Assembly (NCBI GenBank): GCA_025094145.1
Contig: JALLLS010000063.1
Span: forward strand, 1-64,000
Length of the DNA stretch: 64,000 bases
Source of the DNA: Spinellus fusiger
Taxonomy: Eukaryota > Mucoromycota > Mucoromycetes > Mucorales > Phycomycetaceae
Direction: 5' to 3'
Each line of letters opens with the position of its first letter. Within the stretch, counting starts at the first letter, position 1. The translations under genes were made by a program, and so were the position numbers. Under the pieces are notes generated by a model. It saw nothing but the letters and a program-made list of their open reading frames with translations. It had not been told where the DNA came from and did not search any database. This document shows positions 2,993 to 63,600 of this stretch, in pieces.

Positions 2993-4040
2993 TTAATATT
3001 TGGTGCTTCCATCCTTGGCCTCAATGACAGCCCTACATCTCCGCCCCATGCTGGCAATGAGGTTGTTGGTAGTCTCCTTAGGGATTTTATCCCAGTCTTG
3101 GACCAATAGAGCTTTAAGATCTTGGAGGGTGCTTACTGGGATCATCTTCGTACAAACTGCTCTGTCCATCTCTTCCCAAAGATGCTCAATTGGGTTCAGG
3201 TCGAGGCTTTGAGAGGGCCACCCCTCCATCGTGACTATGCCTCTCATTCTTCCATTTCTTAGTCTCCTTACTAGTATGGCAACTGACATTGTCTTCTTGA
3301 AGAAAATAGCCTACCACTGGATTCAGTGCCGAAAGATGAGTCAGCTAGGGGCAATAGGCCTTCTCTAAAATACTGGTGTATTTGGCACTATTGATGGATC
3401 CCTCCACCATAGCAAGTCTACCAACACCTTCACCAGAAAAGGAACCCCACACCATCACCCCAACATCACCAAACTTCATCGCTGGCTTCATATTCTTTGG
3501 GTGGAGTCACCCCTTCTTCCTGAGCACCACCCTGCTGTGGTTGTTGCTGCTCATTAGCTGGAGCTTTGATTCATCGGACCAGATGACTGTCTTCGAGTCT
3601 TCATCTATCCAATGAAGGTAAGTCCTAGTCTAAGTAAGCCTCAACTTCTTGTATTTAATGCTGAGAGAAGGTTTCTTAACAACCCTGAAAGAAGAAAGGC
3701 CAATCCTCTTTATCATCTCTCTAAAAGTGCTCATGCACACTTTGGTGTTCATCTGTTTGCAAAGTTGATCTATTGTCTGAAATGAACTCCTTTCTATCTC
3801 GCATACAACCTCTCTCTCGTCCTTCTACTTCAGAATAGGCTTGCACCCAGAGCTCTTCCCTGCTTTGAAGCAGTCATTTTCCTTGTACTTCTTCACGATA
3901 AGGCTGACAGCAGAATTACTGATGCCAAACATGGCTGCAATATTCATTTGTCTGGTGCCATGTTGGGTGGCCTCGTGAACAATGAGTCTAAGAGTAAAGT
4001 CTTCGATATTTTTCTTATTGTCTCTAATAGGCTTGATGGT
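2993..4040 (-). pseudogene. Tc1/mariner-like transposase relic, copy 1
   Basis: Read on the minus strand from about 4040, the fragments follow the Tc1 order. First comes a helix-turn-helix region (ending in MFGISNSAVSLIVKKYKEND), then a WSDES segment around the second catalytic Asp, then GVMVWGSFSGEGVG, and at the end WPSQSLDLNPIEHLWEEMD, the signature around the last acidic residue of DD34E transposases. The C-terminal 98 residues are open (3289-2993). Upstream the frame is broken by stops (for example near 3640 and 3825) and frameshifts. Terminal inverted repeats were not identified, and 2761-2990 holds only AT-rich sequence. This is a dead Tc1-family element. Confidence 0.85.
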
Positions 4041-4970
4041 TTGTTAAGTGGTGTTGAAAATAATAGATATTATAGCGGAAAAAGAAGAAATGAGGAATAA
4101 GCAAAAATATATATATATATATTTTGAGCAAAATAGAGGTCGGAAAATAAAATCTTTATATGTTTTCCACCGGACACTATACTTATTGTTTTTGAGTGGG
4201 AACGCCAACGCCGCCATAGAGTGCAAAGACCCCTTCAGCAACAGACGCTGTATCCTCACTTCTCCTCCGATCTTTCCTCTACCACCTATTCTTAGCCCGT
4301 TTAGCAAAGCCAGAAGCTGCTAGTGTAGTTGCTGTAGTTGTGTCTTCAGGATTGTCCGAGTTGCTCTAAGTATCCCTAGTTGGTTTTCGGATTACCATAG
4401 GATAACAGTTATCTTTTTTTTTTTGGTGTCCTGGTTTCCTTGCTGACTTTATGGCCTTTTGGATGTCTATTCATAATTCTCATTTTACCACCATATCCAC
4501 TCATTTGAGGTTTTATATTCTCTTATTCTTCTGTTTCCTTTCTCTTTGCATTTTTTTTCACTTTTGTATTTGAAGTGTTTCTATGTTTATTCTTAAATCT
4601 TCAAAAAGTCCTCATACGGTGACTAATATGCCCAATGCGCGAATAGCAAATTACACCCAAAAAATAAAAATACTTTGAACTGTAGAAGTAAAGTAACCAG
4701 AAAAAAAGTAATGAGGGTTCTTCAAATTATAAGCTATTTTTATACTAAAAATAACGTACACTATTTTTAATTTTTCATAACACTTCTTTAATTATGAAGT
4801 CTGCACTATCCAACACCATGAGCATCTTCACCAGAACACCTGAAATGTATAAGAAGGTATACCAGCATTGAAATCAGTTTAACTATTCTCCACCAGGTAC
4901 TTAACCTTAATTCTACCAAGGCTGAGGCATCTCAAATGTTCAACGTGTCTACTTTTATTGTAGGGAATAT
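4041..4970. other. AT-rich spacer between two transposon relics, no gene seen
   Basis: Both strands were read. The short ORFs here are unconvincing and overlap on opposite strands. There is a TA run near 4109-4121 and several T tracts (4413-4424, 4548-4556). No tRNA-like fold, splice-linked ORF or known motif was recognised. Parts may be non-coding ends of the flanking Tc1-like relics. Confidence 0.5.
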
Positions 4971-4974
4971 CATA

Positions 4975-5640
4975 AAGCATTTCAACAAGACAAACTCAGT
5001 GGTACATTCTCCCAAGAGTAGCTGTAGGAGAAAGCTAGATCGTAGGGCCCATTTGTGGTTGAGAAGAACAGTTGTGAGGATCCCCAACAGACCAAGGATG
5101 CTATCATAGTAGCCATGGCCATCAAAGTCACAGACAAGACTTTGAAGAAGTACCTTGATGAAATGGAGTTCCACTCTCTCAGTCCAGTAGTGATGCTTCT
5201 TTTGACAAATAAAAACATAGAGGCAAGGCTCCAGTGAGCCCGTGATCACAGAGTAGAGCCAGTGAGACATAAAAAAGACATCAAATTTAGTAGGAAGCGT
5301 GTTAAATCCTTTGAGCCTAAGAATACCTTGGAAACAAGGAAGTTTGGAGGAATGGTATGGGTCTGTTTTATCAACCAAGGTGTTAGGAGATGGAAAGTAG
5401 CGGAGAGTAGAATGAACTCCAGCAAGCGTATTGATGTCTTGGAAGAAGTCTACTGTCCTAGGCTTAAATATTTCTCCCCTAAACTATGATATCAATGGCC
5501 ACGTACAGGAGGACACTACAAGACCTCCTACAATTTAAACAACCTGATTTGAAGGCAAAAATGGTATAATAATGACTCTTTACTAGTCCTTACAATGTCC
5601 TGATCTCAATCCAATGAATGTATAAAATCATAGCATTGTC
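4975..5640 (+). pseudogene. Tc1/mariner-like transposase relic, copy 2
   Basis: On the plus strand the pieces follow Tc1 transposase order, spread over several frames. RRKLDRRAHLWLRRTVVR at about 5020-5070 resembles the start of the second DNA-binding helix-turn-helix. It is followed by KDAIIVAMAIKVTDKTLKKYL and LLTNKNIEARLQ. Then come FSRKRVKSFEPKN and KFGGMVWVCFINQGVRRWKV, matching the usual GGxVMVWGCF segment, and RIDVLEEVYCPRL. Stops and frameshifts break every domain and the C-terminal acidic signature was not found. It points opposite to copy 1 and is more degraded, so the two are independent dead insertions or an old inverted pair. Confidence 0.7.
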
Positions 5641-5881: not shown

Positions 5882-8800
5882 TTATATTTTCTGAACACGG
5901 CGATTGATCTCATCTACCAAATGATCTATGGAGTATCCCCAACTTGCTATCATGATCTTCAGTGTATCATTTAGTGCGCCATGGGATTCCTGAAATAATA
6001 GAGCCAATACACATTTGATGAGCATGAAATCAAAAACAACCACCTATAGAGAGTATCTTACTTTGGTATTGAAGTAGTCAATTGTGTTGGGTCTATCAAT
6101 AACAAGCTTAAACATTTTCTTCTGTAATTGGGCCTTGAACAAATCCTTTCCACTCTTTCCACTTGCTTGTAAATCTATTATTGTTTTCTTCACGGTTGCT
6201 TGAAGTAGAGTGAAGCTTTTAAGCTATTGTATATTCAACAAAAGGAAAAGATTACTTGACTATACTATTCTCTTGAATACTTACCAGTTCATCCACTGTA
6301 TTCTCTGCTGCCTTTCTCTTTGCATCTTTACTATTCAAGCCAAGTGCTCTGTTCATCATTTCAATAAGTATAGAACTGTAGCTATATGCCTATTATTTGT
6401 GTTAATATATTTCATTATTAAGGCTATGTTTACCTCCAATACAATAGATGTCTCATGGAAGTTCATCCATGAGATATTTTCCATAGTATAAGAATGGCTT
6501 TGAGTGACTAAGTTGTAATAGAGACATGCTTAGTAGAATTCAACCTGTAATCTAAAGATAACTGTACCACGAGTTTCCATGATGCTATTAGCTGCCTTTA
6601 GAGATTCAACAATCTTTGTTGTATCTATTAAAATAGGCATATAGTTTAATCCTCAAACATAAATGAGTGACAATCAACCACTTACTTTCAGCACTTTTGA
6701 CTGGGATTCTGGACAAAACCAGTGCATTGGCTAATTCATAGATGCACTGTGCTAACCAATATTCGTGTGTTGTTACCTAGTAATAATGATCTAAGTCATA
6801 TGTACTCCCATAAACACTACCGATATACCTTTGATTGAATGTCATCTTTCTTTAAAAAGAGTCCAAAGTGTTCAACCATGTTCTGTAGATCCTTACTCTC
6901 TTTCGTATCGCATGCTGCACTAAGAACATTCAGAATATAAGAAAACATTTGAAGCCATATTTTCTATAGCAAGAATAAGAATAACACAGTAAGCTTGTGA
7001 ATATTTCAACACAACTTACGTTTGTACTAGCAGCAGGCTTGAATATTTCTTGAGCAGTAGGCTTTTCTTTAGAATTGCAATTCATAAACACCTTGAAATC
7101 ACGGTTATCCGATCGAGACTCAATGAATGCATCTATACTCTGCTATGAGCACCTAATATACTTGTTGTGCCTCTAATACAATACTCTACCATCAAATTTG
7201 ATCTTAGACACATCTAAATCCTGGAAGAATTGAATTGCATATTTTGTCTGAAATGTTGCATTGAAGCTATCAATTCTAGCAATCTCTACATTGATAATGG
7301 CGTGCTGTAGTGATGTATCCAATCGTCTCCGGAACTCAATGAATTCTTGAATCTGTAGATACACATACACATTTCTGCTTCAGTTGATCTATTCTTTCAC
7401 TTTTGTTTTTACCTTGGAGAAGGTGCCAAACTGGTAAGCTCTTACAAGCATCTCGGGAGTCTAATAAGCAATAAAGACTCATTTGGTTCAACCACAAATA
7501 GTGCATCATTTTCTATTCTATAGTACCTCGACATCATTGCTTTTGTAGATTGAGAGTGCCTCAAAAAGCATATTCTCAACCTCATCATGGCATCCCAGTG
7601 TTATGTATCGATCTGTAAAGTAGTGACTATACAAAATTAAATAAATAGGGTTGAATTTTATCTATTCTTTATCTAATATCCTTACATCATGGTATCATAC
7701 TGGATTTGCTTAATGTCCATGGTTTTGATGATTTGTTGTGGGCGTGCACAGACACCTAGCATACCCTTTAATCTTACATGGAGCACAGACAGCAACATAA
7801 ATGACTTACCAAGCATAGTGTACAGGCGTGCAAGTGTTAATTTGATATGAAAGTTAGAAATACTTTTGGCCAACGCGATTTCCAGAAGAGCCACTGCTTG
7901 AATAAGCAGAGAGATATCTTTATGTTGGTAGTAAAGGTCCAAGAGTACATGGCTGGCCAAAATAGCATGTTCATCACCATACTGGTATTCTGTCTTTTCC
8001 AGTCCCTCGCCTAATGTCACAGAAACACACAGGGATTAAGTTCTTTGTACTCTTCTTATTCCATACCTAGAGGAAGTGTATCTTGGTAGGTCTTCCATAA
8101 AGCATTCACAAGAGAAATTCCTTGCTCAAATGTCAAATCACACTGAAGATCAAGGAAGCGTTCTAATTTTCGAATGTTGGTTCTTTTGAAAACAGACTTG
8201 ATTTTTTCAGCCTACATATCCATTGACAATGAATTCTCCAATTTGCGATATAAAAATCTACCTTTTCTTCTGGTTCCTGAAGAGAGTCTTCAAGTGTCTG
8301 AATAAACTGTTTTGCTTTTTCAGGGGAAGTTCTCAAGTAAGAAATATAAGTCTGAAGATCTTCAAAACAACAGCTTTTAGATCCAAATCGATGGAAATAA
8401 GCAATTATATTATCCAAAGAGATCGAAGGATCTATGATTTGCATGAGTCTCCTATTGGCCCACTGAAGCTCCTACCTCGACCATGACTACTACCAAGTCT
8501 GTAATCCAACTCAAGTTCAGCCAAGAAGGGTCCTCTTTTCATTACAGGTGCTTCCAAGGCAGCCTTTTTCAATTTTTCAATGAGCTGGAAGGCCTCTTGG
8601 ATGAGATCTGCATTTCCTTCCTCCACAAGTGACTGTATAGCATCAAAATAAGCTAACCAGTGGATCCAATCGTCTGAATTCTCTTGAATAAGTGCTTGTT
8701 GACTAATGTCCAGTACTTCATGCCATTTCTTATTGACAATCAACAGTTCTGTTCTTATTTGACGCACATCCGGATCCCGTAAAGACTTTTCTCCAAGAGC

Positions 8801-17617: not shown

Positions 17618-17954
17618 GAAACAGAGCTACGGTATTCTTTTAAAGAATAAAAACATGAAAAGTGGGTGGGCAGGGTCAAATAGGCTATCATCAGTCCAAA
17701 CTGAAACTAAAATGACAAAAGAATGTTATCTGTCTCCTTGGGACAATGGCTAGTTTACCTCCTTTTTGATATAACGCACTGGCCTATAGAGCACTCTATT
17801 CGTCGCTACACAGGGTCATGTATGAAAACGGGATATCCCAGACGCAGTCTAATAAGGAAGAGTGTAGCATAGAGTCACCCATAGATGAGCAACCATTTTA
17901 AGATACTAAAGACACTGTAGCATTTGTGGGCAATAAACGAAATATGGTGACACT

Positions 17955-18455
17955 AATAATGTGACAATAGAATGGTTATAATAAAATAGCTATAGTAGAA
18001 TGGTTATAGTAGAATGGTTATAGTAGAATGGTTATAGTAGGATGGTTATAGTAGGATGGTTATAGTAGGATGGTTATAGTAGGGTGGTTATAGTAGGATG
18101 GTTATAGTAGTAGAATGGTTATAGTAGAATAGTTATAGTAAATATAATAATAATAGAATAGTTATAATAGAATAGTTATAGTAAAATGGTTATAATAAAA
18201 TAGTTATAATAGAATAGTTATAATAAATGGTTATAATAAAATAGTTATAATAAATGTTATAATAGAATGGTTATAATAAAATAGTTATAATAAAATAGTT
18301 ATAATAAAATAGTTATAATAAAATAGTTATAATAAAATAGTTATAATAAAATAGTTATAATAAAATAGTTATAATAAAATAGTTATAATAAAATAGTTAT
18401 AATAGAATAGTTATAATAAAATGGTTATAATAAAATAGCTAGAATAGAATAATAA
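17955..18455. repeat. AT-rich minisatellite, about 14-bp unit, some 35 copies
   Basis: A tandem array of a TTATAATAAAATAG-like unit runs for about 500 bases. The left half mostly has the variant TATAGTAGAATGGT or TATAGTAGGATGGT. The right half is homogeneous TATAATAAAATAGT. A few units differ in length (for example around 18100-18150 and 18230). It sits between the DNMT2 3' end and the secreted-protein gene that starts at 18984. There are no unique spacers between units, so it is not a CRISPR-like array. Sequence 17618-17955, between DNMT2 and the array, shows no gene. Confidence 0.9.
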
Positions 18456-18915
18456 TAATAAAATGAAAGAACACTAACCATGGTGATCATAGCCCACAAC
18501 ATCCAATTTGAGATCCAATAAATGCATAGCTGAAATACCATACTTTGGTAATTCAGTTCAAATCAATTCGCACACATACTCATTTGGTCTAGAATATAAT
18601 TGAACAATTCGAGTAGAGACATGGCACATCACTATCCTGTGGATAAAGAGAACATGCGTGGGTTGATCTATAGAGTGTCTGAGGGGGCATTCTGTGAGTT
18701 GTAGGCAGAGAGGAACACAAGAAATAGTAAAGGCATGAAGAGGCACAGCACCAGATTTGATTTCATTATTGTTATGCTATCTGCTTAGCCAATAAACATA
18801 GCAAGAATGACACTGGGGAATGTCTCTTCAATAAGCATTCTTTTGCTCATCACTTTAATCTTTTTAAAAACACTTTAAGAGAGGGGGTGTAGGCGTGTGT
18901 GTTAGAAGTAGAGAG

Positions 18916-20305: not shown

Positions 20306-20459
20306 AGGGATCTACTTTAGGACTATCGTTATTATGATGGTAATGGATAGTAAAAATAGAATCATTGGTAATTGTGAAAGAGAATAAATAGTGTCTGTAG
20401 AGAGTAATAGGTGATAGTAGTAGATGGTAATTAATGAATAATAACACAGTGTACTTTGT

Positions 20460-20862
20460 AATAACCTTTTAATATCTTTTATTATCTCTTAGTATCTTTT
20501 AATATCTTTTAATATCTTTTATTATCTCTTAGTATCTTTTAATATCTTTTATTATCTCTTAGTATCTTTTATTATATTTTATTATCTCTTAGTATCTTTT
20601 ATTATATTTTATTATATTTTATTATCTCTTAGTATCTTTTATTATATTTTATTATATTTTATTATCTCTTAGTATCTTTTATTATCTTTTATTATATTTT
20701 ATTATATTTTATTATCTTTTAGTATCTTTTAGTATCTTTTAGTATTTCTCCATATCTCTCCATATCTCTCCATATTTCTTAATAACCTTTTAATAACCTT
20801 TTAATAACCTCTTAATAACCTCTTAATAACCTCTTAATAACCTCTTAATAACCTCTTAATAA
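20460..20862. repeat. 10-bp repeat array (TATCTTTTAT type) followed by an 11-bp array
   Basis: From about 20466 to 20745 the sequence is built from decamers TATCTTTTAA, TATCTTTTAT, TATCTCTTAG and TATATTTTAT in changing order. From about 20778 to 20862 the unit changes to an 11-mer of the form TTAATAACCTC or TTAATAACCTT. The T runs in the first array recur close to every 10 bases, about one helical turn. No ORF crosses it. The spacer 20870-21410 up to the RHO1 leader contains no recognised gene; a 13-14 base duplication (ATGACGAGCACCTC) is at 21287-21313. Confidence 0.9.
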
Positions 20863-21414
20863 CTATATTTCTATATTTCTTCATAATCTCTTCATAAGAA
20901 GTAAAATAGCTTCCATCCTTATCAATAGCACTATCAAAAGAGAGGCATGCATTGCACTACTTCAAGGTGAAACAAGAACAAAAGGTAGAAAGGACAAAGA
21001 ACGTGCAGACACACAAATGCGACCATGACACGTGAGATGTGTTCCTTACTTCGACTCTCAGCTGCCCTCAGAAAGACAGATCACGTGCATCAACAGTGGG
21101 TCCGTAGAAATTAGGGCGATCGACCATGCCTTCTTTCACACCCACTTTACATTCTTCACAGGTACGTCATGTGTCTGTGATGAACCTTTTCTTTTCCTGT
21201 TCTATTTCATGGCGCAGAGTGAGAGAGAGGGGAAAATAGTCTAGAGAGAAGGGGCAGGAGGAGTGTAGACTGTAGATGGGCTGCTCATGACGAGCACCTC
21301 ATGACGAGCACCACAGGCCATAGAAACCTATTACAGCAGAGGAGGGGGAAGAAAAGAAAAAAAAATTCAGCCAACAGAACTACACCTCATTCCATAGAAC
21401 ATTTCCTCATCTTT

Positions 21415-21580: not shown

Positions 21581-22838
<1,258 letters not shown>

Positions 22839-23147
22839 GACTTGAAGGGAAAACAAACAAGAGGGTCTATATAGCGTGTGCGTGTCTTTTTTATTCTTTG
22901 TGTGTCTGTCCGTGTGCGTGTGTGTATGTGCGTGCCTATTTCTTTTTCTTTTTTGTATCTCACTTTATAACACACTTTTTTTTCTCTTGGTGTCTTTTCT
23001 TAACAAATTCACTTTATTTTATATAAAAAAACACACTGAAAAGCCCACGGTTTTCGTCTTGTAAGGTAGAGAGTGCCTATAGCTAGTTGTGTTGTATTGT
23101 GCCTGTGCCTGTGCCTGTACAGAAGAAAGAATCCCCTTATAAGAGAG

Positions 23148-23345
23148 AATAATAACACTAATAATAATAACAACACTAATAATAACAACAACACTAATAA
23201 TAACAACAACACTAATAATAACAACAACACTAATAATAACAACAACACTAATAATAACAACAACACTAATAATAACAACAACACTAATAATAACAACAAC
23301 ACTAATAATAACAACAACACTAATAATAACAACAACAACAATAAT
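23148..23345. repeat. 15-bp minisatellite (AATAACAACAACACT)
   Basis: About twelve tandem copies of a 15-base unit, ending in a run of AAC and AAT triplets to about 23365. It lies between the RHO1 3' end and the caleosin gene. Because the unit is a multiple of three without stops it leaves an apparent 127-residue Asn/Thr ORF, which has no other support. Confidence 0.9.
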
Positions 23346-23581
23346 AATAATAATAACAACAATAAACGTAGTAGTTTAGATGGTGGATCTACGGAAAAAA
23401 TAAACATCAACATTCTCGAGAGACAAGTGTGTATGTGTGTGTGTATGCGCATGTGAATGTGTGAATGTGTGTATGTGTGTTTATGCAGTGGTTGGTCCTA
23501 CCTTCTTAACAGAAATATACAATATATGGATAAATAGATAGATAAACAATAAATAAACAATAACATTAAAGGCATGACAAG

Positions 23582-23769: not shown

Positions 23770-26700
23770 ATGCAGCCCATAACAACCGAAACTGCCTTGA
23801 CCTTCAACGCCCACTCTACAGCCTGCACGACACATGCTGCTTCTGATCATTCAGTACGACATCTTATTTGAGTGGGTGACTGATTGTATTTGCTAGGTAG
23901 TAAAGAAGCATTTTTATTACTGGGATCACTCCAACAAAGGCTATATCACACCCATCGATGCATTCCAAGGTAAATTGAATAGAAAGAAAGAGAGACAGAT
24001 AGATAGATAGATAGATAGGGATCTTCGTTGACAGCAGTGTCTTACCATCAACAGGCTGCACTGAGTTGGGTTACAGCACATTTTACAGTGTTCTGCTGGG
24101 CACTATGATGTGCATGTTCTTTTCCTATGCAACACAAGATGCCTGGATACCGGACCCTTTCTTCCGAGTGCGATTGAGTCCACTTGTCAATACAGAGGTA
24201 AGAAGTACAAGCATAGATTAAGAACCCTGCCTCCCCACTGCTATCCACAGTACAAGGGGAATACAGTCCAATGAACTTACAAATCTTATCTTTAAATCTT
24301 ATCTTCTTTTGTTCCATGGCACTCCATAGGCCTATAGCAAGTTTGAATCCAATGGGCAATTTGATAGAGATACATTTGAATCTCTGTTCATGGCCCATGC
24401 AAAGAGCGATCCCTTGGGCCAGACTATCACTATGAAGGAATTCATCACTATGATGAGATCTGCCAAATCACATGGCATGACCTGGTAAGTCCTACGAGAG
24501 ACTAAATACAGTGACTAGAATAAACCACCCTTGACTGACGCTCCCTGTCATCGTAGGAAAACACCGCTGTATGAATGGTGTACACTGTACATCTTTGCAG
24601 GTCATCATGGCAGTCTTAGAAAACAGGATGTCATGGCTGCTTATAATGTAAGAAGCTGAAACTTGAACCTTCTCAGCATTGTCTCTAACATGCCAAAAGG
24701 GAACCCTCTTTTTCCGTGTACGTGACACCAGGCGTCTTGTCACTAATCAAACGACATCATCAGGAAGTGTACATTCTCCTAGTCTTATCCATTACCCACC
24801 CCAAAGCCTGGTACATAGCATCACAGGACGGATCTCATCACTAGCTAAAAGACTCGAGGAGAATTTCCATGCCTTGGTAACAAAGTCTGAACAGAATCCC
24901 CCTTCTCGCTCGCTTGTATGGACCTCTCACACAACATCAAAAAAAACCCCTCCTTGTGAGGTCGAATTAAGCGACACCTCTTCTGTCGTTGCCTCTTCCT
25001 CTTCTTCTCTTTCACAACCTCTGTTGGCAGGGTTACTGCAACCAAGTAAGGAGGAGGAGGGGGAGGAGGAGAAGAAATATAAAGCCATAGAATGGGATCA
25101 TAAGAGTCCATTGACAGGTGTAAAGAGATCAGAAAGAAAGAGATCCATGGTGGAAGGGGTACAACTTGATCTTATGCCCAGTCTCACAGGCATTCGTCGA
25201 TCCTCCACACTCCACCCTACAATGCCACTGGAAGAGACAGAATCCTCCTCTTTATACATACCATGGCTAGAAACTCAGAGCGACATAGGCTTATCCACAC
25301 AACCCTCTGAACCAGCCAAAGAAACGACAGTTCAGCTGATCTCACATCTCACAGGTGTTCCTTACTATGAAATACAAGGCACACACCCAATAGAGAACAC
25401 TCCCCTGTTTAACTTGGATCTTCTTGCAGTCCCACCTTACACCACAGAAGATGGCATAGATCAACAAGAAACAGACTACGACCGGGAAACCCTCCATCAG
25501 CGACACATCATGGCCCATCTGGGATCCTACTTGACAGGTGTTTGTTACTCTAATACCGCCACAACACCATCGTGGTATGGTATGGGCAATGATCAGACTT
25601 CTCTGCTGAGTACCGAGCTATTATCACTGACAGAGACTCAAAGACCACCCACCTCCACAGAAATCCATCGTCATCACTCCATCTCCAGTGAATTGATCAG
25701 TGCCGATAACAGTTACTATGATATCTCTGCTGTTTTTGCTGGTCTTCTTCATCCAGACACAGGCAAGCACGCCTCTTCTCTGCTGGGAGTCTCCTCTGTA
25801 GACACTCTGTTCAACCGAGGCACAGTAGAGCATGAAGAAGAAACAGAGACTTCCTATGTGAGTAGCTCGGATGATGTCATGGACCATGGATGCTTTACAG
25901 ACCCTATCTTGTACTGTGGCCTCCAGTCCCCACCACCTCTAGTCTCTTCTGTTGATTTAACAATGGAGTTTACCGGGGGGCATGAGGGTCTACTGCCTAT
26001 TGATGTTATATCTGCTGTTCCTCTGACGGGATTGAGTTCATCTCCACCACAGCAGGACACATTTTGTCTTATGGACTTGGACATGGACCTGTCACAGTGT
26101 ATATCCACTGAGTCTAGTGAAGAAGTGACAGAGACAGTTCTTTTCAAGGGACTGTTGAAGAAGAAGGGGAGTGACTCCTCCGTGTCTGCTCTTGTAGACT
26201 CTAGTTTGCTCGGTGGTGGTATGGAATATCAACAAAACAGGGGTCGTGCTTCTACCAGTGCTAGTGAAAGAGAGGTCGATCAGATGACAGTAGATGCAAC
26301 CAAGGATCTGCTTCATAGCTACCCTCTCCCTACTCTTGGCATTGGAAAGGATGACACTGCCAATACCAAGAAAGAATCCAAAAGAACTTACAAGAAAAAG
26401 AATGTGGAAACAGATGAACCAAGCATATCTATTGAAAAAGACTTGACAGACACTGCCAATGCCAAGAAAGAATCCAAAAGAGCTTACAAGAAAAAGACAG
26501 TGGAACACTCCATGGCAAATGATTCTAGTGAAGAGACTCTTCCAGACACTACCAGTACCAAAAGGATGTACAGAAAAAAGTCATTGGAGACATCCTCACT
26601 GATCAATTCTGCTGAAGAAACTACATCAGATGCTATCAATGACAGTGCCAATGCCAAGGAAACACTCAAGAAAAGGACTACAGAGACTTCCGTGGCAGGA

Positions 26701-27120
26701 GGTTCATCTGAACAGACTACACCAGACACTGCTAATGCTACTACTTCCAAGAAAATGTCCAAGAAGAAATCACTGGAGACAGGTCTAGCAGGTGACACTA
26801 CTGGAGAAACTACATCAGATGCTATCAGCACCAAGAAGAATAAGAAAAAGAACGTAGAGACTCCTGTGGTAGTAAGCGATGCAATTGAAGAGAATGATGT
26901 GGATACTTTCAATATCAAAAAGCTGTCCAAGAAACAATATAAGAAAAAGACTTCAGACTCTTCTGTGGCAAGTGATCCTGTGGAAGAATCTCCTGAAAAT
27001 ACTGCCGATCTCAAACCATCTACAAAGAAGCAGTCTACAAAGAAGAATCCAAGAACGTCTGTGGCGAGTGGTTCTATTGTAGACCAGACGACTGACACTG
27101 AAGCAGCAACTTGGCAATGA
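23770..27120 (+). CDS. Caleosin-family protein with a very long repetitive C-terminal extension
   Basis: Caleosins are lipid-droplet proteins with a Ca-binding EF-hand, a hairpin membrane anchor and often heme peroxygenase activity. Exons 1-5 (23770-24650) give the complete caleosin pattern: HFYYWDHSNKGYITPIDAF (EF-hand loop with Lys where Asp is usual), GCTELGYSTFYSVLLGT (membrane hairpin), WIPDPFFRVRL, FESNGQFDRDTFESLF, MTWKTPLYEWCTLYIF and AAYN. They splice in frame at about 24700 to GTLFFRVRDTRRL, the usual caleosin end. The last exon then stays open for about 790 more residues to 27120. That tail holds at least five LTG[VIL] motifs (SPLTGVKR, PSLTGIRR, SHLTGVPY, SYLTGVCY, VPLTGLSS), acidic Ser-rich stretches, and from about 26350 a Lys-rich array (KRTYKKKNVET, KRAYKKKTVEH, KKMSKKKSLET) with spacing of roughly 30-40 residues. 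Typical caleosins are 200-300 residues. Tail function is unknown. Confidence 0.8.
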
Positions 27121-27805: not shown

Positions 27806-29036
27806 GTACACACCCAAAGATTTTCTGGACTTTAACAGTTATATCCTTCCTTTTGAGACAGAAAAAACGCACCTTATATGGAACAATGATTAGAATCAAA
27901 GGGTTTATGGATGTCCAATTTGTTATTTCCTTTTGTAGTATACCTCACTATCAAATTGTATTATCAATAGAATATAGTGTTGATGAATAAAATTGTTTAT
28001 TGTAATAGTATAGCTAATGATATATTATGTACTATAGCTACTGCCAAAGTACACTCCCTTCATAGCAATAGAATCTATATCCCAACATTATAATGGTTTA
28101 TCCTTGGGAGATAGATTACAATGAGCTCAAGCCCAGATGAAGACACTGCCTACCTTTTTATCACTAGAATAGTCCTTGGTAGTGTCTACAACTTCCTTCT
28201 ATTGTTTCTCTTTGTTAATAATGGCACATTACCTTGCTCAGTTATGCTCATATTGACATGTGCTTGATTGTTATACTGTGGGCTTAAGGATAGCATATTA
28301 TGTTAAACAATAGATACAGTGATTGAGTTGTAATGTCAGGTTTGCTTCTTCCTTTTATCCAACTTTATAGTGTTTAATCACACAGTCCATAGTCGATGCT
28401 AAGACAGACAGACAGCGAAAAGGTTTTTTTCAAACACATTAGCCAACCAAAGAAAACAAGTCGAGAACAAGAAACAGTCAGCTGTTCAAGTTCTTAAAGC
28501 CTATCTTGTTTATACGCTAGGAAGCTGTTTGGATTAAAGTCTATCTTATTAAAGATATAGACAATTACACTTTTTATATTAGTTTTCTATTTCTTCTTTG
28601 ACTGTGAATTTGTCTATTCTGCCATTCCCAGGCAATAGCTATGATTTTCATAGAACATCCAAGCAGACTGGGAAGGGTGGCTGCCCTATCCTACAGTGTG
28701 TATAGTTTTGGTTTTGTATTTCAAGGCCATAGAATTCCATAAAGTGATTTTATTGTAAAATATCTCCTTTATTCTGCAATAAAGGGCACTAGGGTTATCA
28801 ACAAGACCACTAGAGAGATAAATGTATAGATATTGGGTCTCTAGCAGGGACTACGAAAGAGAGTATTATTACAAAGGATAGTCTAGGGAAATCAAAGACC
28901 GTACATGAACAGGAACACAACACACAATTTGATCACAACAGGTAACTAGGCAACTGTTCTTTAAGGAATTCTTTTTCTTTCTAGAATGTTGTTGTAGTCT
29001 GGATTACTTTGGTGGTTCTGATTAAGCAAATGGCTT

Positions 29037-29246
29037 GTGAGATTTCTTTTTGTTCTCAAGATCTGCCATACTTATATTACAAATAACCTCACTGAGGTAT
29101 TAGTGAATTTCAACAATATCCGCGCTTGCCAAGGTTGTGGAATTGTTTGGAACAGAAATGTGAATGCATCAAAGAATATCTATACAATTACAGAAGAGTG
29201 TTTAAAGGGTCTCCACCGACCAGTTCCATTCTGTAGAAAAGAATAG
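29037..29246 (+). pseudogene. Fanzor (eukaryotic TnpB/OrfB-like nuclease) C-terminal relic
   Basis: Near the C-terminus the ORF reads RACQGCGIVWNRNVNASKNI. This is the second half of the zinc ribbon (CxxCG) followed by the RuvC-III motif that in TnpB and Fanzor proteins reads RDVNAxKN. Fanzors are RNA-guided DNA nucleases carried by eukaryotic transposons. Here the catalytic Asp of RDVNA is Asn (codon AAT at about 29157), which should abolish nuclease activity. The ending HRPVPFCRKE fits the short basic tail seen after this motif. Upstream in 28455-29030 I could not reconstruct the first RuvC motifs or the first CxxC; the frames are broken by stops. The call rests on one strong motif in a mobile-element context. 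Confidence 0.65.
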
Positions 29247-29457
29247 ATATTCTTATTTGTATTCATATTATATATCACCCCATCGAAGGTGGTTTTCTCT
29301 GGGATTCAGATATCTACAGGTAAATCTACATAGTTTTTATTTAAAAACTAACATGAGTACATCTTAATTTATTTTCGCTCCTCAAATCGATGTCATTTCT
29401 TAAACAATTTTATTTCAACTATTTCTTTTTATATCCTAAAGATCTCCTGGTGTGTAG
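29247..29457 (+). ncRNA. Candidate omega/fRNA region between the Fanzor relic stop and element end
   Basis: In TnpB and Fanzor elements the guide RNA is usually encoded from the 3' end of the nuclease ORF to the element's right end. The 211 bases from the stop at 29246 to the terminus at 29457 are non-coding and include a possible hairpin-rich GATATCTACAGG region near 29308. This is inference from family organisation; no transcript or fold was computed, and the nuclease next to it looks dead. Confidence 0.2.
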
Positions 29458-29874: not shown

Positions 29875-32280
29875 ATGCTGAGAGGTTGTCTTTGGTGTGT
29901 GGGTCGTGCATCCAATAACGTCACATTAAAAAGACATGCACTGATATCCACACCCCTCTTGTCCCAGCGGCTGGTATCTCGCACTGTCCTACGCACAGCC
30001 CCTGGAAAGGTCTTGTTTTCAAGTGCTACTACTTCCTCCACGTCTTCTTCTCAGTCCAAGGTGGTCAGTAAAGTAGGAGAAACAGTCTCTACCAAAGAAC
30101 AAAGAAAGAAGTTGGATCGTGAAAATGTGAAACGTCTTTTTGCCCTTGCCAAGCCAGAAGCCAAGAGTATTTCGGGTAAGTAGGACGGCTATGACTGTTG
30201 GGTCTGTAGGATGGATACTTATTGTATTATTACTATTATTATTATTACTATTATTATTATTATTATTTGGATACTAAGCGGCGGTGGGATTGCTTTTCGT
30301 GTCTTCAACTATTACTATGGTGCGTTGATAGTTACTCTCTTTAATGGCTCACTGTGATACTAGTCTGTTCCATTCTCCATGGGCAAAATCATTGATATAG
30401 TGACCAATCCATCCACAGAGGGTATCTTAGGACTCTCAATGCCCCAGTTCTTTGTTGCATTATCGGCTGTTTTCTTGGTGGGTGCAGCTGCTAATACAGG
30501 AAGAGTGCTTTTGTTCCGATGGACAGGAGAACGCATTATCCAAAGACTGCGCAATGATCTCTATCGTTCTATCCTAAGACAGGACATGGCCTTCTTTGAT
30601 AGGAATCGAACAGGAGAACTCATCTCACGTCTTTCAATGGATACAAATATTGTTGGGAAGAGTATTACTAACAATGTGAGCGATGGGCTTAGGTGAGTCC
30701 ATACAATGGAACAGAACAAGTTACTCAATAGAGGGCGGATGAATGTAGAGCCCTTGCCACGACTGTTGTTGGATCTTCAATGATGCTCTGGGTGAGGTAA
30801 GAAGACCAGTCATAGCCATAGCAAGTAGAAGATAATAGTCTAGTAAGACAATGTATAATAAAGACATGTGTACTTTATTGTATTATATTGTATAGTCCTC
30901 AATTGACGGGTATTATGATGTTGATTGTCCCTCCTGTCGCTGTCTTTGCCATTGCCTATGGTCGCTATGTAAGAACACTCTCCCGCAATACACAAACAGC
31001 CCTCAGTGAAATCACAAAAGTGGCAGAAGAACGCATCAGTGCCATTCGAACTGTACAGGCCTTTGCCAAAGAAAAGGTGGAGTTGCGACACTATGAGCTT
31101 CGTGTGGCAGATATCTACCATTTAGCATGTAAGGAAGCCATGGCCAATGCTGCTTTCTTCGGCGGTGCTGGTCTATCAGGCAATTTGGTGGTGTTGGCTG
31201 TGCTGTGGTATGGTGGTGTAATGGTGGCAGAAAGTGCTATTACCATTGGTGAATTGACCTCCTTTATGCTATACACTGCTTATGTGGGCACATCTCTTGG
31301 AGGCTTGACGAGCTTCTATTCTGAAATTATGAAGGGTGTGGGTGCATCAGAACGTATCTTTGAATTATTGAATCATCAGAACACCATTTCTGTGGAGAGT
31401 GGAATACGCCTGCCTGACTTGAAGGGAATGATCCAGTTCAAAGATGTCCAGTTTTCTTATCCTACACGCCCACAATCTCCTATCTTTGAGAACTTCTCAT
31501 TGACTGTCAAACCAGGCACAGTTGTAGCCGTAGTGGGTGCTTCTGGATCAGGAAAATCCACTCTCGGATCCCTTTTGTTGCGTTACTATGATCCTACTCA
31601 GGGGGCCATCTATATTGATTCTACCAATATCAAAGACATTGAGCTGCACTGGTGGCGCAAGAACATTGGTGTTGTTTCTCAAGAGCCCGTCTTGTTTGCA
31701 GGCACCATTGAAGAGAACATTGCTTATGGACAAGAGAATGCTACCAAGGCAGAGATTGAAGCAGCTGCTATTAAGGCCAATTGTGCTTCTTTTATTGACT
31801 CCTTCCAGGACAAATATGATACTTTGGTGGGTGAACGTGGTATCAGTCTGAGTGGTGGACAGAAGCAAAGAATTGCCATTGCTCGTGCACTCTTGAAGAA
31901 TCCTTCTATTCTCGTGTTGGATGAGGCCACCAGTGCCTTAGGTATAACAAAGACATAATCAATAGATGGATTCTGATGTATGGACTCTATATTTTTTCTC
32001 TCTCTTTCTCTCTCTCTCTTTAGACTCGGAATCAGAAGTACTAGTACAAGAAGCACTTAACCGACTCATGCATGGACGCACTGTGTTTACTATTGCCCAC
32101 CGCCTATCTACCATTCGTTCAGCTGATTTGGTGGCCTGTCTTGATAAAGGCAAGGTGGTTGAACTAGGCACATACCAAGAACTGGTAGATAAGGAAGGAG
32201 GTGTTCTTCGTCATCTTGTCGAATTACAATCTCTTGGTGATTCTCCTCTTACACCTAGCACGAAGCACATTCTACTCTAG
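29875..32280 (+). CDS. Mitochondrial ABC half-transporter, ABCB10/MDL1 type
   Basis: This is an inner-membrane half transporter with one six-helix transmembrane domain and one nucleotide-binding domain, expected to work as a homodimer in export from or protection of mitochondria. I chose the ATG at 29875 because it begins an Arg/Ser-rich, acid-poor presequence (MLRGCLWCVGRASNNVTLKR). The membrane domain includes SVPFSMGKIIDIV, RLRNDLYRSILRQDMAFFD and NRTGELISRLSMDT. The ATPase domain has Walker A GASGSGKST, Q-loop VSQEPVLFAGTIEENIAYG, signature LSGGQKQR, Walker B ILVLDEATSAL completed across an intron with DSESE, and the H-loop IAHRLSTI. The match to ABCB10 around QEALNRLMHGRTVFTIAHR is close. 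About six exons; one intron has an ATT/ACT repeat at 30221-30268. The stop is at 32278-32280. Confidence 0.9.
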
Positions 32281-39767: not shown

Positions 39768-40157
39768 TGGGTCATCACAACACTGCACTGTCAAATAGAG
39801 TAATCTTATTGGCTACACATGTCTTCCCTTTTTGGAACACACATTATCCTATGTGAATACACACAGATAATATAATATAATTAATAAGATAAATGCTAAT
39901 GCAATATAGTGTCTTGGCTTAACATGTTCACTGTGAAGAGAACATAAAGACAAGACATGTATATGCAATTGTATACTATAGAATTTAGTATAAATAATCA
40001 AGTGAATTCAATGAATAAACATTATCTTCTATCTTCTCTTTTATTCTTCTTCTTTGATCTATGTGGGCTTCAGTCCAGACCTTGTTATCCTCAGTTTCCT
40101 CTTATTGCTGTCTCTACTTTCGGGCTTAGTATTATCCTGAAAAAATTAGTAACCTAT
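39768..40157 (+). mobile_element. Solo LTR-like repeat A, upstream of tRNA-Gly
   Basis: About 390 bases are shared with repeats at 53682-54069 (minus), 60122-60510 (plus) and, in the 3' half, 59764-60117 (minus). The unit contains a promoter-like TAGTATAAATAATCAAG followed about 25 bases later by AATAAA, as in an LTR with a TATA box and a polyadenylation signal, but no coding region lies next to it. Its 3' third (after CAGTCCAGACC) matches copy D rather than copies B and C, so two subfamilies or a recombinant are present. The 5' end is set only by length match and no clean target duplication was found for this copy. The 3' end lies about 14 bases from tRNA-Gly. Confidence 0.65.
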
Positions 40158-46173: not shown

Positions 46174-47409
46174 CTACACACCCAAAGATTTTTAGGATAT
46201 ATAAGGAAATAAACTGAGAATAAAATTGCAATATTCTTATGATTGGCTAATATGTTTAAAAAGGCTTTTTTGCTGTCTAAATGGTCAATTTCAAACTTTA
46301 CTTACCTGTTTAAGCAATGACTATTGACTTTGCAATTAAAAAGTATAGAATTAGCTGTAAAGACAAGAAATAGAACAAGAATCACCCCAAAATTAAAACT
46401 CAGTCACTGCATTTATTGTTTAACATATCGTGTTATCCATAACCCCACAGTATTTGCAGTATAACAATGTTTAAGAAAGATGTTTATTATAAGACACATA
46501 CTGAAGTAACTATAGTGGTCATTGCCCATAAAATAGAACCAAACTCACTTACATTGAGAACTGTATAGTCAATCATTGACTCAGTATTCATAATCACTTC
46601 AGTAACTATGTTATTGTAACTGGTATTAACAGTGGTGCTTAATGATAAGGTATTGTTTCTAATACTGGACTTTAGGCTCAAGGCAAATAGAGTGTGAATT
46701 GTTTGACTTGTGAATTTTACGAGTGAAGACTAAAATGTATTCATTAATAGAATAGAGAGAGAGAGAAAATATTATTTGTTTTGATAATCCCCTCTTGTTA
46801 TTTCCCATACTGTCCATACAACTTAACACCCAAGTACTCGTCAAGATGAGCATAACTGAGCAAGGTAATGTGACATTATTAACAAAGAGAAACAATAGAA
46901 GGAAGTGACAGACACTACCAAAGGCTATTCTTAAGATAGAAAGGTAAGCAGTGTCTTTATCTGGGCTTGGGCTTCTTGTAATCCACAAGATACTCATTGT
47001 ATTGTTATTAGGCAAGTAAAGATTCCTTTCAGGTCAGTCCCAAGTAGTCTTCTATACTGTTTAGGGTATCTGGGGTATAATCATGATCATGATCATAGTT
47101 ATCTATCCCCTAAGGATAAAGCACAAAGCTTTTAGGGTATAGATTCTATTGCTATGAGAGAATGCACTTGGGCAGTAGCTACAGTCATATAGTATTAGCT
47201 ATACTATTACAATAAACAATTTTATTCATCAACACTATATTCTATTGATAATACAATTTGATAGTGAGGTATACTACAAAAGGAAATAATTATGTGAATA
47301 TCCGCAAACCGTTGATTTTAAACACATTTTCATATAAGGTGAGTTTTTCATTTACTTAAAAAGAAGGATATATCATCGCTTAAAAGCCAGAAAATCTCCT
47401 GGTGTGTAG
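46174..47409 (-). mobile_element. Internally deleted Tnp2/Plavaka-family element
   Basis: The ends CTACACACCC (46174) and GGTGTGTAG (47401-47409) are inverted repeats with subterminal homology to the elements at 27806 and 60644. About 450 bases at the 47409 side match the left part of the 27806 element. On the minus strand, 46681-46487 encodes a fragment (DYTVLNVSEFGSILWAMTT) that aligns with the C-terminus of the transposase at 60972-61310 (ECIVLNTSKFGSLFWTMTT). The rest of the transposase is missing, so this copy is a 1.24-kb deletion derivative that could only have moved with help. It occupies most of the interval between the divergent genes TOA1 and RRP3. A clean target-site duplication was not identified. 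Confidence 0.75.
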
Positions 47410-53681: not shown

Positions 53682-54069
53682 TTCGTTCTCTAATTTGCAT
53701 AAAATAGTTTTAAGCCTGGAGGTACGTGCACAGAGTGGAATAGCTAGTGGTTCTTGGTTTGGACTGAAGCCCATGTAGATCAAAGAAAAAGAATAAAAGA
53801 GAAGATAGAAGATAATGTTTATTCATTGAATTCACTTGATTATTTATACTAAATTCTACAGTGTACAATTGTATATACATGTCTTGGCTTTATGTTCTCT
53901 TCACAGTGAACATGTTAAGCCAAGACAATATATTGCATTAGCATTTATCTTATTAATTATATTATATTATCTGTGTGTATCCACACTGGATAATGTGTGT
54001 TCCAAAAAGGGAAGACATGTGCAGCTAATAGTATTACTCTATTTGACAGGACAGTGTCTAGCACGGACA
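53682..54069 (-). mobile_element. Solo LTR-like repeat B, 8 bp upstream of tRNA-Phe
   Basis: This 388-base unit is the reverse-orientation relative of the repeats at 39768 and 60122. It starts TGTCCGTGCTAGACACTG (at 54069) and contains the same TAGTATAAATAATCAAG promoter-like string and AATAAA. The 5-bp sequence TTTCT flanks it exactly at 53677-53681 and 54070-54074, a target-site duplication. The side nearest the tRNA is its 3' end, and only three bases lie between the duplication and the tRNA-Phe 5' end. No internal retroelement coding sequence is attached, so it is a solo LTR or a short LTR-only element. Confidence 0.75.
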
Positions 54070-59763: not shown

Positions 59764-60117
59764 TCAGTTACCAATTTGGACAGGATAATACTAAGCCCAA
59801 AAGTAGAAACAGCAATAAGAGGAAACTGAGGATACCAAGGTCTGGACTAAAGCCTCATAGATCAAAGAAGAATAGATAAAGAGAGGATAGAAGATCCTTT
59901 TTATTCATTCAAAATAGTTGCTTATTTATACTAATTTACATATGATACAATTGACTAAGTACATCTTGTCTTCAGTCTACTCAGGGTGAGTGTGACTTCA
60001 TCCAAGACATACTGTTTGTTCAATTATTTAATAAACCCAAAAGAAGTAATCCATGTGAGTCCAATAAGGAAAAGTGTGCTGGCCAATGGAATCATAGCAT
60101 TTAGTATAGTGGCAACA
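59764..60117 (-). mobile_element. Solo LTR-like repeat D
   Basis: On the minus strand the 3' part (CTTAGTATTATCCTGTCC, TTCAGT/TTTAGTCCAGACC, GCTTTAGTCC region) matches repeat A, and the central TAGTATAAATAAGCAAC with AATAAA is the shared promoter-like part, but the 5' third differs from copies B and C. TTCTTG flanks it at 59758-59763 and 60118-60123, giving a 5-6 bp target duplication. It lies head to head with repeat C. Length about 354 bases. Confidence 0.6.
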
Positions 60118-60121
60118 TTCT

Positions 60122-60510
60122 TGTCCATGCTAGACACTCTCCTATCAAATAGAGTAATACTATTGGCTGCACATGTCTTCCAAAAAAGGAAGACACATTA
60201 TCCTGTGTGGATACACACAGATAATATAATATAATTAATAAGATAAATGCTAATGCAATATATTGTCTTGGCTTAACATGTTCTCTTTACAGTGAACATG
60301 TTAAGCCAAGACATATATATGCAATTGTACACTGTGGAATTTAGTATAAATAATCAAGTGAATTCAATGAATAAACATTATCTTCTATCTTCTCTTTTAT
60401 TCTTTTTTTTTATCTACATGGGCTTCAGTCCAAACCAAGAACCACTAGCTATTCCACTCTGTGCACATACCTCCAGGCTTAGAACTATTCTGTCCAAATT
60501 AGGGAACAAC
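60122..60510 (+). mobile_element. Solo LTR-like repeat C
   Basis: A 389-base copy starting TGTCCATGCTAGACACT, close to repeat B along its whole length, with the same TATAAATA and AATAAA. Flanking ATTCT (60117-60121 and 60511-60515) is a candidate duplication, although repeat D's insertion overlaps its left side and part of the match may be chance. It has a 16-base palindromic pair CTTGGCTTAACATGTT ... AACATGTTAAGCCAAG at 60267-60309, a stronger internal inverted repeat than in copies A and B. Its right side abuts a LINE 5' fragment. Confidence 0.65.
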
Positions 60511-60643: not shown

Positions 60644-63600
60644 CTACACACCCAAAGATTTTTAGGATATAAAAGGAAATATCCTGAGAATAAAATCAAA
60701 ATATTCTTATGATTGGCTAATATGTTTGAAAATGCCTTTTTATTGTCCAGATGATTGATTTCAAACTCTGCCTGCCTATCAGAACAAAGATAATTGACTT
60801 TGCAATTGAAAAGTAGAAAATTAGCTGTAAAGACAAGAAATAGAACAAGAATCACCCCAAAATTAAAACTCAGTCACTGATATTCTTCTCTTAGCATAAT
60901 TTGTTATCCTTAAGCCCACAGTATTTGCAGCATAACAATGTTTAAAAAAATATTTATTGTGGGACTTGCACTCAATTAACTCTAGTGGTCATTGTCCAAA
61001 AGAGAGAGCCAAACTTACTTGTGTTAAGAACAATGCATTCATTCATTGACACAATGTCTACAACTTGTTCAACAACTATCTTGTTGAGGGCTACCTCAAT
61101 GGTAGTGTTCAATAGGAAGATAACATTGTTTCCAATGCTATCTTTTAAACCCAAGGAAAAAAGAGAGAAAGAATTGGGACCTGCAGCCAAGGCAAGATGT
61201 TGAGGGTGGGTGGCTGAATTCTCACCAAAGACAAGTTGGAAGTTGTAAGGAAGAATGGTGGCCATATTCTCCCTTTTGTCAATGGTAACAACCTTAACAA
61301 AGACAGGCAAAGCACCAGAAAAAAAGAAAAAGAGACCAGCCAGACCAACAACTATTCTTTTGGAGCTGCAGTTGTTGTCTGCAAGCTCACAAGACAGAAC
61401 AAGAAGATGTATTTGCTAAAGCAGCTTAACATTGGCTCCAGCAGTAAAGAGACCACCATGGCCAGACACCTGCCAGTACCCACCCTGAAAGATGTGTGTC
61501 AAGATACACTTCTTTCCAAAAGACACAGCAACATCCCAAGAAGGTGACTGCCTGTTGGTGTGCAGTATGTGTTCTCAGATAAACTTGTTGTATTGTTCAC
61601 CTCTCTCTGTTTTGTATTGAACAGGTGAACCAAACTGCAAGATATCTTTGTACAGGTGGTGGAGGAGATGCAGCTTCAAGGTGTTGCTGATGATTGTCTT
61701 TGCAGATGCACTTGGAGCTGGCAAATTATCATACATGATGATAGAAGCAACCAACTTTTTTGTAGCAGATCTGACCTTGTCCACATAGATATCCAGACAT
61801 GCCTCAATATCCTGCATGTAGAGAAGAGATACAAGCAAACCAAGCTTGACAAAACAATCAAAGATGATTGCTTTTGAATCATTGTTGCTTATAAGTCTTC
61901 TTTGGACCAGGTCACACAGGATGGTGGGCATCTGCTGGATGATGATCTTGTAGTCTCTTCCAAGATAAGATCAACACAGGTGAAATAGAGTATGGTGCTT
62001 TCTTGTGAAAGCCTTTGAGTTGTAGTTGAAGAATCTTTCTTCCAACTGCTTCACTTCTTTCTTGGCATAAAATGGCACCATGCCAACCACAAGATGTTTT
62101 GCAACACCAAGAAGGATGGTGTGGAGTATTTCCACTGGGCAATCCATGGTCAGATCCCACAACTACAAGGACAAAAGGGCTTTTCCACCAGTCAACTTGT
62201 ACCCAGTGTCAGAGTTGCTTCTGAGGCTAGCATTGCTGGGGTTGCTGGCACAATGCTGGTACATCTCCACCAGATCCTCCTTTCTTCTTCTTGCATGAGC
62301 AGCACCATCCACTCCCTCCTGCTCCACTGTTGCATTTCCACTATTAACCCAGTAACACTTTCTACATGGCAGCCTAGCCTTAGCACCAAGACTGCATGCC
62401 ACAGCTGTATGCATAGGGTTGTCTGCCATGAGAAAGTGCACCACACCAACAACAAGAACAGTTTCACCATACTCCACATTGAACATCTTCACACCTTTCT
62501 CCAAGGCTCCAAGGTCCTTCACAAGCTCTGGGAGCATCTTCGTGATTGACAGCTTGTTGCTGGTGCAGACAAAGAACAGATTCTCAACCTTACACTGTTC
62601 TTTGAATGGCATTGCTGCAAGAGACATTACACAACTCTCAAACTTGTTCCACTTTTTGGTTGTATTGCCACTTGTATCATCTAAGAACAAGTTCAGAGGC
62701 ACAGTTTTTACTAGCATGAACTGTCTGTTGGGGTTGGTGGTACTTGTAGCAATTTTTTTGAGTGGGTAGTGGGTGGTAGAGTTGGTGTGGGTGTTGTTGG
62801 AAAGTTGAATGACTTTCACAATGTCTAGAATGACAATGCTTCTGACAGAAGACAAACCAGATGCTTCTTCATAGGCATTGGCCATCAATCTACTGCTTGA
62901 CATGAAAAAGGAGGCAAGCTTGTATGGTGAAGTTACACTTTCACCAGGAGAGGCATATACTAGATCTCCCACCCAGAGATCCACAGAAATGTTGTTAATG
63001 GTGACAGTGACCATTGGGTGCTGGAATAGTGGGTGTGTCTTTTATTTCTCCCCTTGCTGAGGCAAAACACTCTGTTCAGGTGTTCTGTCTGGCAAGGCAG
63101 AGAGCATTGTTGTTTTGAGGGGGTTGGTGGTGAGCAGCCTCAAATGCTCAGAGGGTTTGTTCATAGAGAACTGGTGGATGGTGGTGGGGAACTTGGGGAC
63201 ATGGCTTCTCACCCTCTTCTCAAGGTTAAGAACCCTGTTTAAAGCAGGAGCTTTCTCCTAAGGATTGGCAAGACAAGCCTCTCTCACATCTTTGCACAAG
63301 GTGATGATCTCTCCTGCAAATCTTCTTGAGATACATTCCTCATTTTCAGTAAAGAAACATTGTATGATCATCTCCAGCTTTGTCAAGAATGGGAAGATAT
63401 CATCTACAGAGGCAGCCTCCTCAAAGGTATTGTTACTGCTGTCAAAATCATCTTCCCCAGTAACCCAAAGAGTTTCTTCTTCAAGAACTATCTCCTGGTC
63501 ATCATCACCTTCCTCTTCTACACAGAAGACTGTGGTGATGGCAGGGAGAGGTCTGTAAACAATAGAAAGAAATCATGATGAGCTTGGTTCTTATCATTCT

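Follow-up and report, generated by a model that had tools for sequence, protein, structure and literature searches.

Among the closest described systems are the Spu-1 Fanzor elements of Spizellomyces punctatus, for which the part of the paper that was available counts 134 ghost loci beside 42 loci where a Fanzor gene is present in full or in part (Saito et al. 2023, PMC10432273). The same part reports two conserved bases preceding the left repeat, a demonstrated guide RNA, no transposase found between the same ends and, at one Fanzor locus, overlap of a guide RNA with the final 17 codons (Saito et al. 2023, PMC10432273). Further Fanzor partners, namely hAT, Mariner, Crypton and Helitron, are mentioned in the accessible text of PMC10711439, and a full-length Fanzor1 protein of known structure is described from Parasitella parasitica in the portion of PMC11423790 that was at hand. 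In Mucorales fungi, Fanzor1-type proteins captured by DNA transposons, including non-autonomous families, are described in a source of which excerpts were available; these give 9-bp duplications for MuDr-type Fanzor elements, and EnSpm or CACTA is not named in them. For the transposases, the account used here is PMC12730594, which we take to be by Kojima (2025). According to its available sections, the CMCT clade is marked by C(2)C and H(3-4)H motifs and by CA..TG ends with duplications of 2-5 bp, and ESTA and Plavaka of this clade carry TET/JBP cargo in fungi (PMC12730594).

The window, that is, the whole stretch of 64,000 bases of Spinellus fusiger DNA that was analysed, holds an element at 27807-29456 that is best explained, with good probability, as a recent deletion derivative within a high-copy non-autonomous DNA transposon family, itself derived from a CMCT-type element with a Fanzor gene in its 3' untranslated region (UTR). 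As far as the available text on Spu-1 goes, the two systems are alike in being inverted-repeat Fanzor elements with many gene-less copies that have ends and with conserved bases upstream of the left end, whereas S. fusiger differs in the 458 sites at which a remnant motif occurs, in the introns of its gene and in the presence of transposase elements that share the left end. The S. fusiger elements also have TA at their ends and not the 9-bp duplications given for MuDr-type Fanzor elements in the excerpts. Measured against the available sections of PMC12730594, they share with CMCT/ESTA elements a cargo gene, CA..TG ends, a likely TA duplication and the C(2)C and H(3-4)H motifs, and differ in the cargo, which is a dioxygenase there and a Fanzor in S. 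fusiger; TA target and CA..TG ends place them closest to ESTA, by the description of ESTA in those sections. Compared with the P. parasitica protein, as described in the portion of PMC11423790 at hand, the likeness of the S. fusiger copies to TnpB/Fanzor-type proteins is C-terminal only.

Anatomy of the element within the window

The features of the element and of two relatives in the same window are as follows.

27807-29456, forward strand: whole non-autonomous element of 1650 bp, terminal TAs included, both ends recognised
27807-27830, forward strand: left end, TACACACCCAAAGATTTTCTGG..., its TA the likely target duplication; left-end pattern repeated genome-wide
28273-28454, forward strand: remains of a transposase-gene 3' UTR (28273-28334 and 28410-28454), matching the 3' part of the 60644 element and the 46174 element
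28455-29404, forward strand: Fanzor-derived block of 950 bases, missing from both other window elements, edges without inverted repeat
29045-29057, forward strand: junction of an internal deletion of about 575 bases that removed the RuvC-II exon, placed by alignment with longer copies
29061-29246, forward strand: last Fanzor exon, with stop codon TAG at 29244-29246
29157-29269, forward strand: long hairpin of 113 bases spanning the final codons, the stop codon and the first part of the 3' UTR, a candidate guide-RNA scaffold
29405-29456, forward strand: right end, 82-83% over about 53 bases against the ends of the two other elements
46174-47409, reverse strand: related non-autonomous sibling with the same two ends and transposase 3' UTR sequence, without the Fanzor block
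60644-64000, reverse strand: transposase element running past the edge of the window, with its 3' end at 60644
60972-63572, reverse strand: transposase reading frames, interrupted in the window copy (60972-61415, 61575-61970, 62163-63041 and 63258-63572)

Window alignment matched 27807-28124, 28114-28273, 28273-28334, 28410-28454 and 29405-29457 to the sibling at 46174-47409, in inverted order and at 81-87% identity, and found no counterpart there to the 950 bases of 28455-29404. The 60644 element matched only at 28273-28334, 28427-28454 and 29407-29457, together with the terminal repeat. An earlier, sequence-only reading of this DNA had both termini common to two other elements, which holds for the sibling but is shown for only one of the two, because the 60644 element runs off the window and has one end visible. 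The same reading had placed an extra block of about 945 bases at about 28455-29400, correct at both boundaries to within a few bases, and a repeat search of the block found no inverted repeat at its edges, such as transposon ends of its own from a chance later insertion would have given. In longer copies elsewhere in the genome, the same 3' UTR stretch comes after the C-terminal tail of the transposase.

The element sits between an ABC transporter host gene (PF00005, PF00664) to its right at 30822-31958 and an 817-codon open frame at 24667-27120 that had no Pfam match. Another repeat family occupies 39780-40153, 53685-54069 and 59767-60507, including 302-base inverted copies at 94% (39780-40081 versus 53756-54057), and its pieces near 60 kb adjoin the transposase element. 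Tandem arrays with units of 14, 10, 11, 12 and 18 bases were observed at 17902-18502, 20397-20874, 22247-22432 and 23112-23414.

The Fanzor gene in the window copy and in fuller copies

A CQGCGIVWNRNVNASKN motif was found in the window exon 29061-29246, bearing out the Fanzor-type CxxCG...WNRxVNAxKN motif proposed for 29037-29246, with the exon slightly inside that range. Its second zinc knuckle is intact (CQGC), the first is damaged (CHTY), and RuvC-III reads NRN, with Asn for Asp. The exon alone does match the OrfB-type profile PF07282 (E 4.1e-4), as the check suggested for this interval had foreseen, but its 20.9 bits lie under the family cut-off of 26.3. Sequence comparison gave no match in the window copy to the RuvC-II exon, to RuvC-I or to the N-terminal part of the S. 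fusiger predicted protein P0001, and about 60 Fanzor codons are retained; the Fanzor/TnpB C-terminal motif of Bao and Jurka (2013) is missing from it, as there is no TS exon and the remaining parts read CHTY and NRN. A TTTTGTTCTC-like repeat is present at both breakpoints of the deletion in longer copies. A twin on C110 is 99.76% identical (3 mismatches and 1 gap in 1651 bp) and has different flanks; therefore the deleted form probably moved recently. To judge from its letters, this copy is dead as a nuclease, comprising cargo and ends only, and an active nuclease in it finds no support there; the earlier description of a guide-nuclease-bearing module thus does not suit a copy with some 60 codons, no RuvC-II exon match and NRN in place of NRD. 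Among 62 loci, which are distinct places among the best matches and not a random sample and which include the nearly identical pair L058/L059, a RuvC-II exon match was absent in 21, and NRD was retained in 51.

A 32-base zinc-exon motif, taken from the window exon in the form commonest among the other copies, occurred at 458 genome sites at no more than three mismatches (reversed control, 0). Out of 457 candidates, 150 were scored against PF07282 and 147 of these exceeded the cut-off; the other genome scans scored 150 of 988 and 150 of 770 candidates. Longer copies have an upstream exon AYGTG...VDEFRTSR, then a short stretch with intron marks and then the zinc ribbon. In the unspliced copy L062, one frame had no PF07282 match and the other scored 34.0 bits, and removal of two predicted introns (75 and 74 bases) gave a C-terminus of 141 amino acids, VDKFLTSKICHTC...CQSCGIVWNRDVNASKN, that scored 49.5 bits (E 4.7e-13) over positions 6-60 of 60; the predicted introns are supported because the score climbs in this way on splicing. 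The spliced product also matched guided_TnpB (E 3.2e-8, 33.3 bits, the cut-off of that model being 100), had the TnpB-like protein L79 as its best PDB match (6.7e-5), and contains the motif of Bao and Jurka (2013), that is, [TS][TS]xx, a four-Cys zinc ribbon and RD, as TSKICHTC...CQSCGIVWNRD.

Further upstream, the gene can be followed through P0001, which is 68% identical and in which GVDLGRK resembles RuvC-I by eye. Its GVDLG lies 136 residues upstream of RTLR (TL, not TS; counted by hand), where the motif of Bao and Jurka (2013) asks for a RuvC-I Asp 125-275 residues upstream of a TS pair. The RuvC-I stretch was matched at 18 loci, C13:411155, C140:135754, C127:161349, C46:568077 and C119:231006 among them, and two elements on C1, at 1102820-1105177 and 1158279-1160762, have this stretch (with three stops each), the C-terminus and both ends. 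A complete Fanzor reading frame was found in none of the longer copies examined. The earlier reading had suggested looking for intact copies that join a Fanzor gene to these termini; many copies do join Fanzor exons to the ends, but the intact gene was not encountered. A fuller Fanzor gene at C13:411155-412256 is the likely place of the partial gene model BDF14DRAFT_1710815, and the nearest exact left-end pattern among those listed is 4.3 kb upstream of it. Equal-scoring pairs of Fanzor remnants on opposite strands, about 2-17 kb apart, were observed on C112, C117, C131, C167 and C172 (for example C167:17362- and 20188+, and C172:96007- and 97923+), and represent inverted duplications or assembly palindromes.

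A protein search for relatives of the Fanzor gene returned one, from S. fusiger itself, and a second search of 391 candidates, with a length limit that P0001 falls just below, returned none at E 0.1. The predicted structure of P0001 (pLDDT 34) was useless. Sequence search could not tell Fanzor from TnpB, and the likeness it points to is that of a C-terminus to TnpB/Fanzor-type proteins only; the eukaryotic location, the introns and the transposon setting are consistent with Fanzor1. Divergence was compared among 35 copies, after those more than 98.5% identical had been dropped from 38, and at codon positions 1, 2 and 3 amounted to 0.148, 0.095 and 0.190 in one exon and 0.148, 0.184 and 0.168 in the other. 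Taken overall, third positions diverged 1.26 times as much as first and second positions (permutation p 0.033). Intron 1, at 0.197, diverged more than the exons (0.144 and 0.166), and intron 2, which lies between the RuvC-II exon and the equivalent of 29061-29246 in L062 and other longer copies, diverged less, at 0.097. These values may hold, at best, a faint trace of past constraint.

Ends, guide-RNA question and probable transposase partner

The termini read CACACC..GGTGTG with an adjoining TA, which is present at nearly all ends. The right-end pattern has 369 exact sites in the genome and the left-end pattern 675 sites at no more than one mismatch, with no site for either reversed control. 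Linkage to the Fanzor remnants was counted from the exact matches listed on C1-C49, with rows of one transposase locus merged. C1-C46 hold 38 exact zinc motifs, of which 24 have an exact right end on their own strand within 400 bp downstream, at 225-283 bp, and 17 an exact left end no more than 3 kb upstream, the opposite-strand count being 0 in each case; both exact ends occur at 12 of these 38 motifs and delimit elements of 960-2559 bp. No empty insertion site was found among the loci examined. At a nested insertion on C29, the junction GTGTGTA|CAAAGG can be compared with the uninterrupted TA|CAAAGG, consistent with a TA target, and on this one junction a TA target duplication is likely.

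The hairpin at 29157-29269 has a minimum free energy of -37.1 kcal/mol (z -5.8 versus 200 dinucleotide shuffles) and was also detected as an inverted repeat. Across 43 copies, 94.5% of its cells are paired, with no covariation beyond shuffles in the same 43 copies. When alignments were folded and compared with column shuffles, in which dinucleotides are not preserved, the 3' UTR alone gave z -2.56, comparison stretches -2.45 and -2.26, and the hairpin-containing stretch -9.30. Rfam returned one match (E 0.97), below the cut-off.

The position of this hairpin at the 3' end of the gene would suit a live RNA-guided system, in which fuller copies make Fanzor, right ends give guide RNAs and a TAM-like YC|TA left flank sets the target. 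The same can be said of the RuvC-I loci, 7 of the 18 being without a stop inside the matched stretch, and of the flanks of the ends. Of 52 left ends, 40 carry C directly before the TA, against 27 of 58 right ends that carry G directly behind it (Fisher p 0.0016); the comparison omitted right-end-type ends also matched by the left pattern, and it includes a few poorly matching rows. C is likewise found before 23 of 29 Fanzor-linked against 4 of 11 transposase-linked left ends (p 0.02), counted on C1-C57 with the Fanzor rows picked by hand. However, both tests were made after the data had been seen, 40 of the 60 left ends without either link have C as well, and the window element itself has G before its left TA. 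Both flanks lean to TCTAGA, and because the right flank also favours GA, part of the signal would be a palindromic target preference. Little codon constraint is visible, one exon having no third-position excess; intron 2 is less variable than the exons, though intron 1 is more so; and the hairpin without covariation stands beside the lack of an intact Fanzor gene among the copies examined. A live system of this kind is therefore regarded as unlikely, though it is the strongest of the alternatives.

The likely partner transposase was approached through the protein of the 60644 element, which has 119 genome matches, with longer open frames at other loci. Eighteen relatives were found, three from S. 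fusiger and the others from Mucorales such as Fennellomyces, Parasitella and Circinella, from Basidiomycota and from metagenomes, with one labelled Albugo candida. Mucorales is also the order of S. fusiger itself. In an alignment of 13 transposases, C258 and C261 (CxxC) are nearly invariant, the consensus KxHxLxHL is present, and D, D and E were picked out by eye as the catalytic residues; with CxxC and KxHxLxHL, the protein bears marks of the EnSpm/CACTA-related (CMCT) clade. The narrower assignment of the earlier reading, to a Tnp2/Plavaka-family element, was not upheld. The Pfam Plavaka family (PF18759) had no match at E 1 in two S. fusiger frames and 8 relatives, and none in a genome scan in which the control likewise matched nowhere; Tnp2 (Transposase_21, PF02992) had none in the S. 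fusiger frames and relatives, nor in a genome scan whose control again matched nowhere. The termini also differ from those of Plavaka, given as TGT..ACA or CATCA..TGATG in the available sections of PMC12730594.

Among the matches listed on C1-C49, an exact Fanzor-family left end lies no more than 3 kb upstream of 10 of 24 transposase loci, with none on the opposite strand, and it is absent at the other 14. An exact Fanzor-type right end follows within 6 kb at 1 of the 24, the nested case on C29; the right ends seen at transposase loci read CTTTGGGTGTGTA or similar, so that the right ends are similar and not identical in type. Among the matches listed, no exact zinc motif lies within 6 kb downstream of the transposase at any of the 24 loci, and no single element combines a transposase gene with a Fanzor gene. 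A candidate for such a joint element on C29 (transposase 3106-5174, Fanzor 5926-6291) was rejected, as the transposase element is nested inside the Fanzor element. A C-terminal tail of the transposase, at 47-59% identity, lies upstream of the Fanzor exon on the same strand in 13 of the 62 loci. Nothing else speaks as strongly for the Fanzor block having entered a transposase element downstream of the transposase gene.

The C29 case demonstrates that nested insertion occurs, and a separate Fanzor transposon could by chance have inserted into an old transposase-derived copy; but the junctions and ends are common to many copies, no inverted repeat borders the block, and this origin is very unlikely. 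Slightly less likely again is movement of the family by a Tc1/mariner transposase, to which the TA at nearly all ends and Tc1-like frames seen by eye beside L017, L024, L037, L038 and L069 would correspond; these frames stand on varying sides and strands of the Fanzor copies, however, and it is the other transposase that has the left-end pattern at the 10 of 24 listed loci, plus a similar right end. That the zinc-ribbon likeness is a coincidence and the block unrelated to Fanzor is scarcely credible, since only the window exon taken alone falls below the Pfam cut-off, against the nearly full-length match of spliced L062, the 147 of 150 scored candidates and the GVDLG at a suitable distance upstream in the P0001 gene model.

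A Fanzor-carrying family and its significance

The origin in a CMCT-type element would have begun when an intron-bearing Fanzor gene was taken into the 3' UTR of such an EnSpm/CACTA-related element, about 50 bp from its right end, and the Fanzor-carrying form would then have spread as a large non-autonomous family. To go by the ends, the family is probably mobilised in trans by transposase elements, through a cut-and-paste mechanism that targets TA. More tentatively, and by analogy with proposals for other Fanzor elements, the Fanzor part could have served the family as an RNA-guided nuclease, aiding its persistence or copying, and could do so even now from fuller copies. In outline, the sequence-only reading had anticipated this: Fanzor cargo in the 3' UTR of a transposase-type element agrees with the block boundaries and with the transposase tails upstream at 13 of 62 loci, and non-autonomous mobilisation in trans is the likely mode, the ends being common with or similar to those of transposase elements. 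Where it saw the joining as an event in this copy, the pairing instead belongs to a family of hundreds of copies.

A joint EnSpm/CACTA and Fanzor element was not found in the open-licence PubMed Central papers searched, and the one work among them in which Fanzor occurs together with EnSpm/Plavaka names them in separate sentences about an alga. Jiang et al. 2023 reportedly made a wider Fanzor survey. The CMCT-Fanzor pairing is accordingly new as far as those papers go, is not a new kind of system, and no priority is claimed for it.

The family bears on what Fanzors do for eukaryotic transposons. A genome-wide network, in which several hundred CMCT-type copies, mostly lacking a working Fanzor gene, are moved by a transposase from elsewhere and the Fanzor of a few fuller copies uses right-end guide RNAs of them all, is conceivable but doubtful; if it were true, its signs would be the TAM-like YC|TA bias left of Fanzor-linked copies and the common RNA hairpin at the 3' end of the gene. 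With Fanzor elements, gene-less copies and transposase elements of the same left end together in one 38-Mb genome, help in trans, guide use and target choice become testable.
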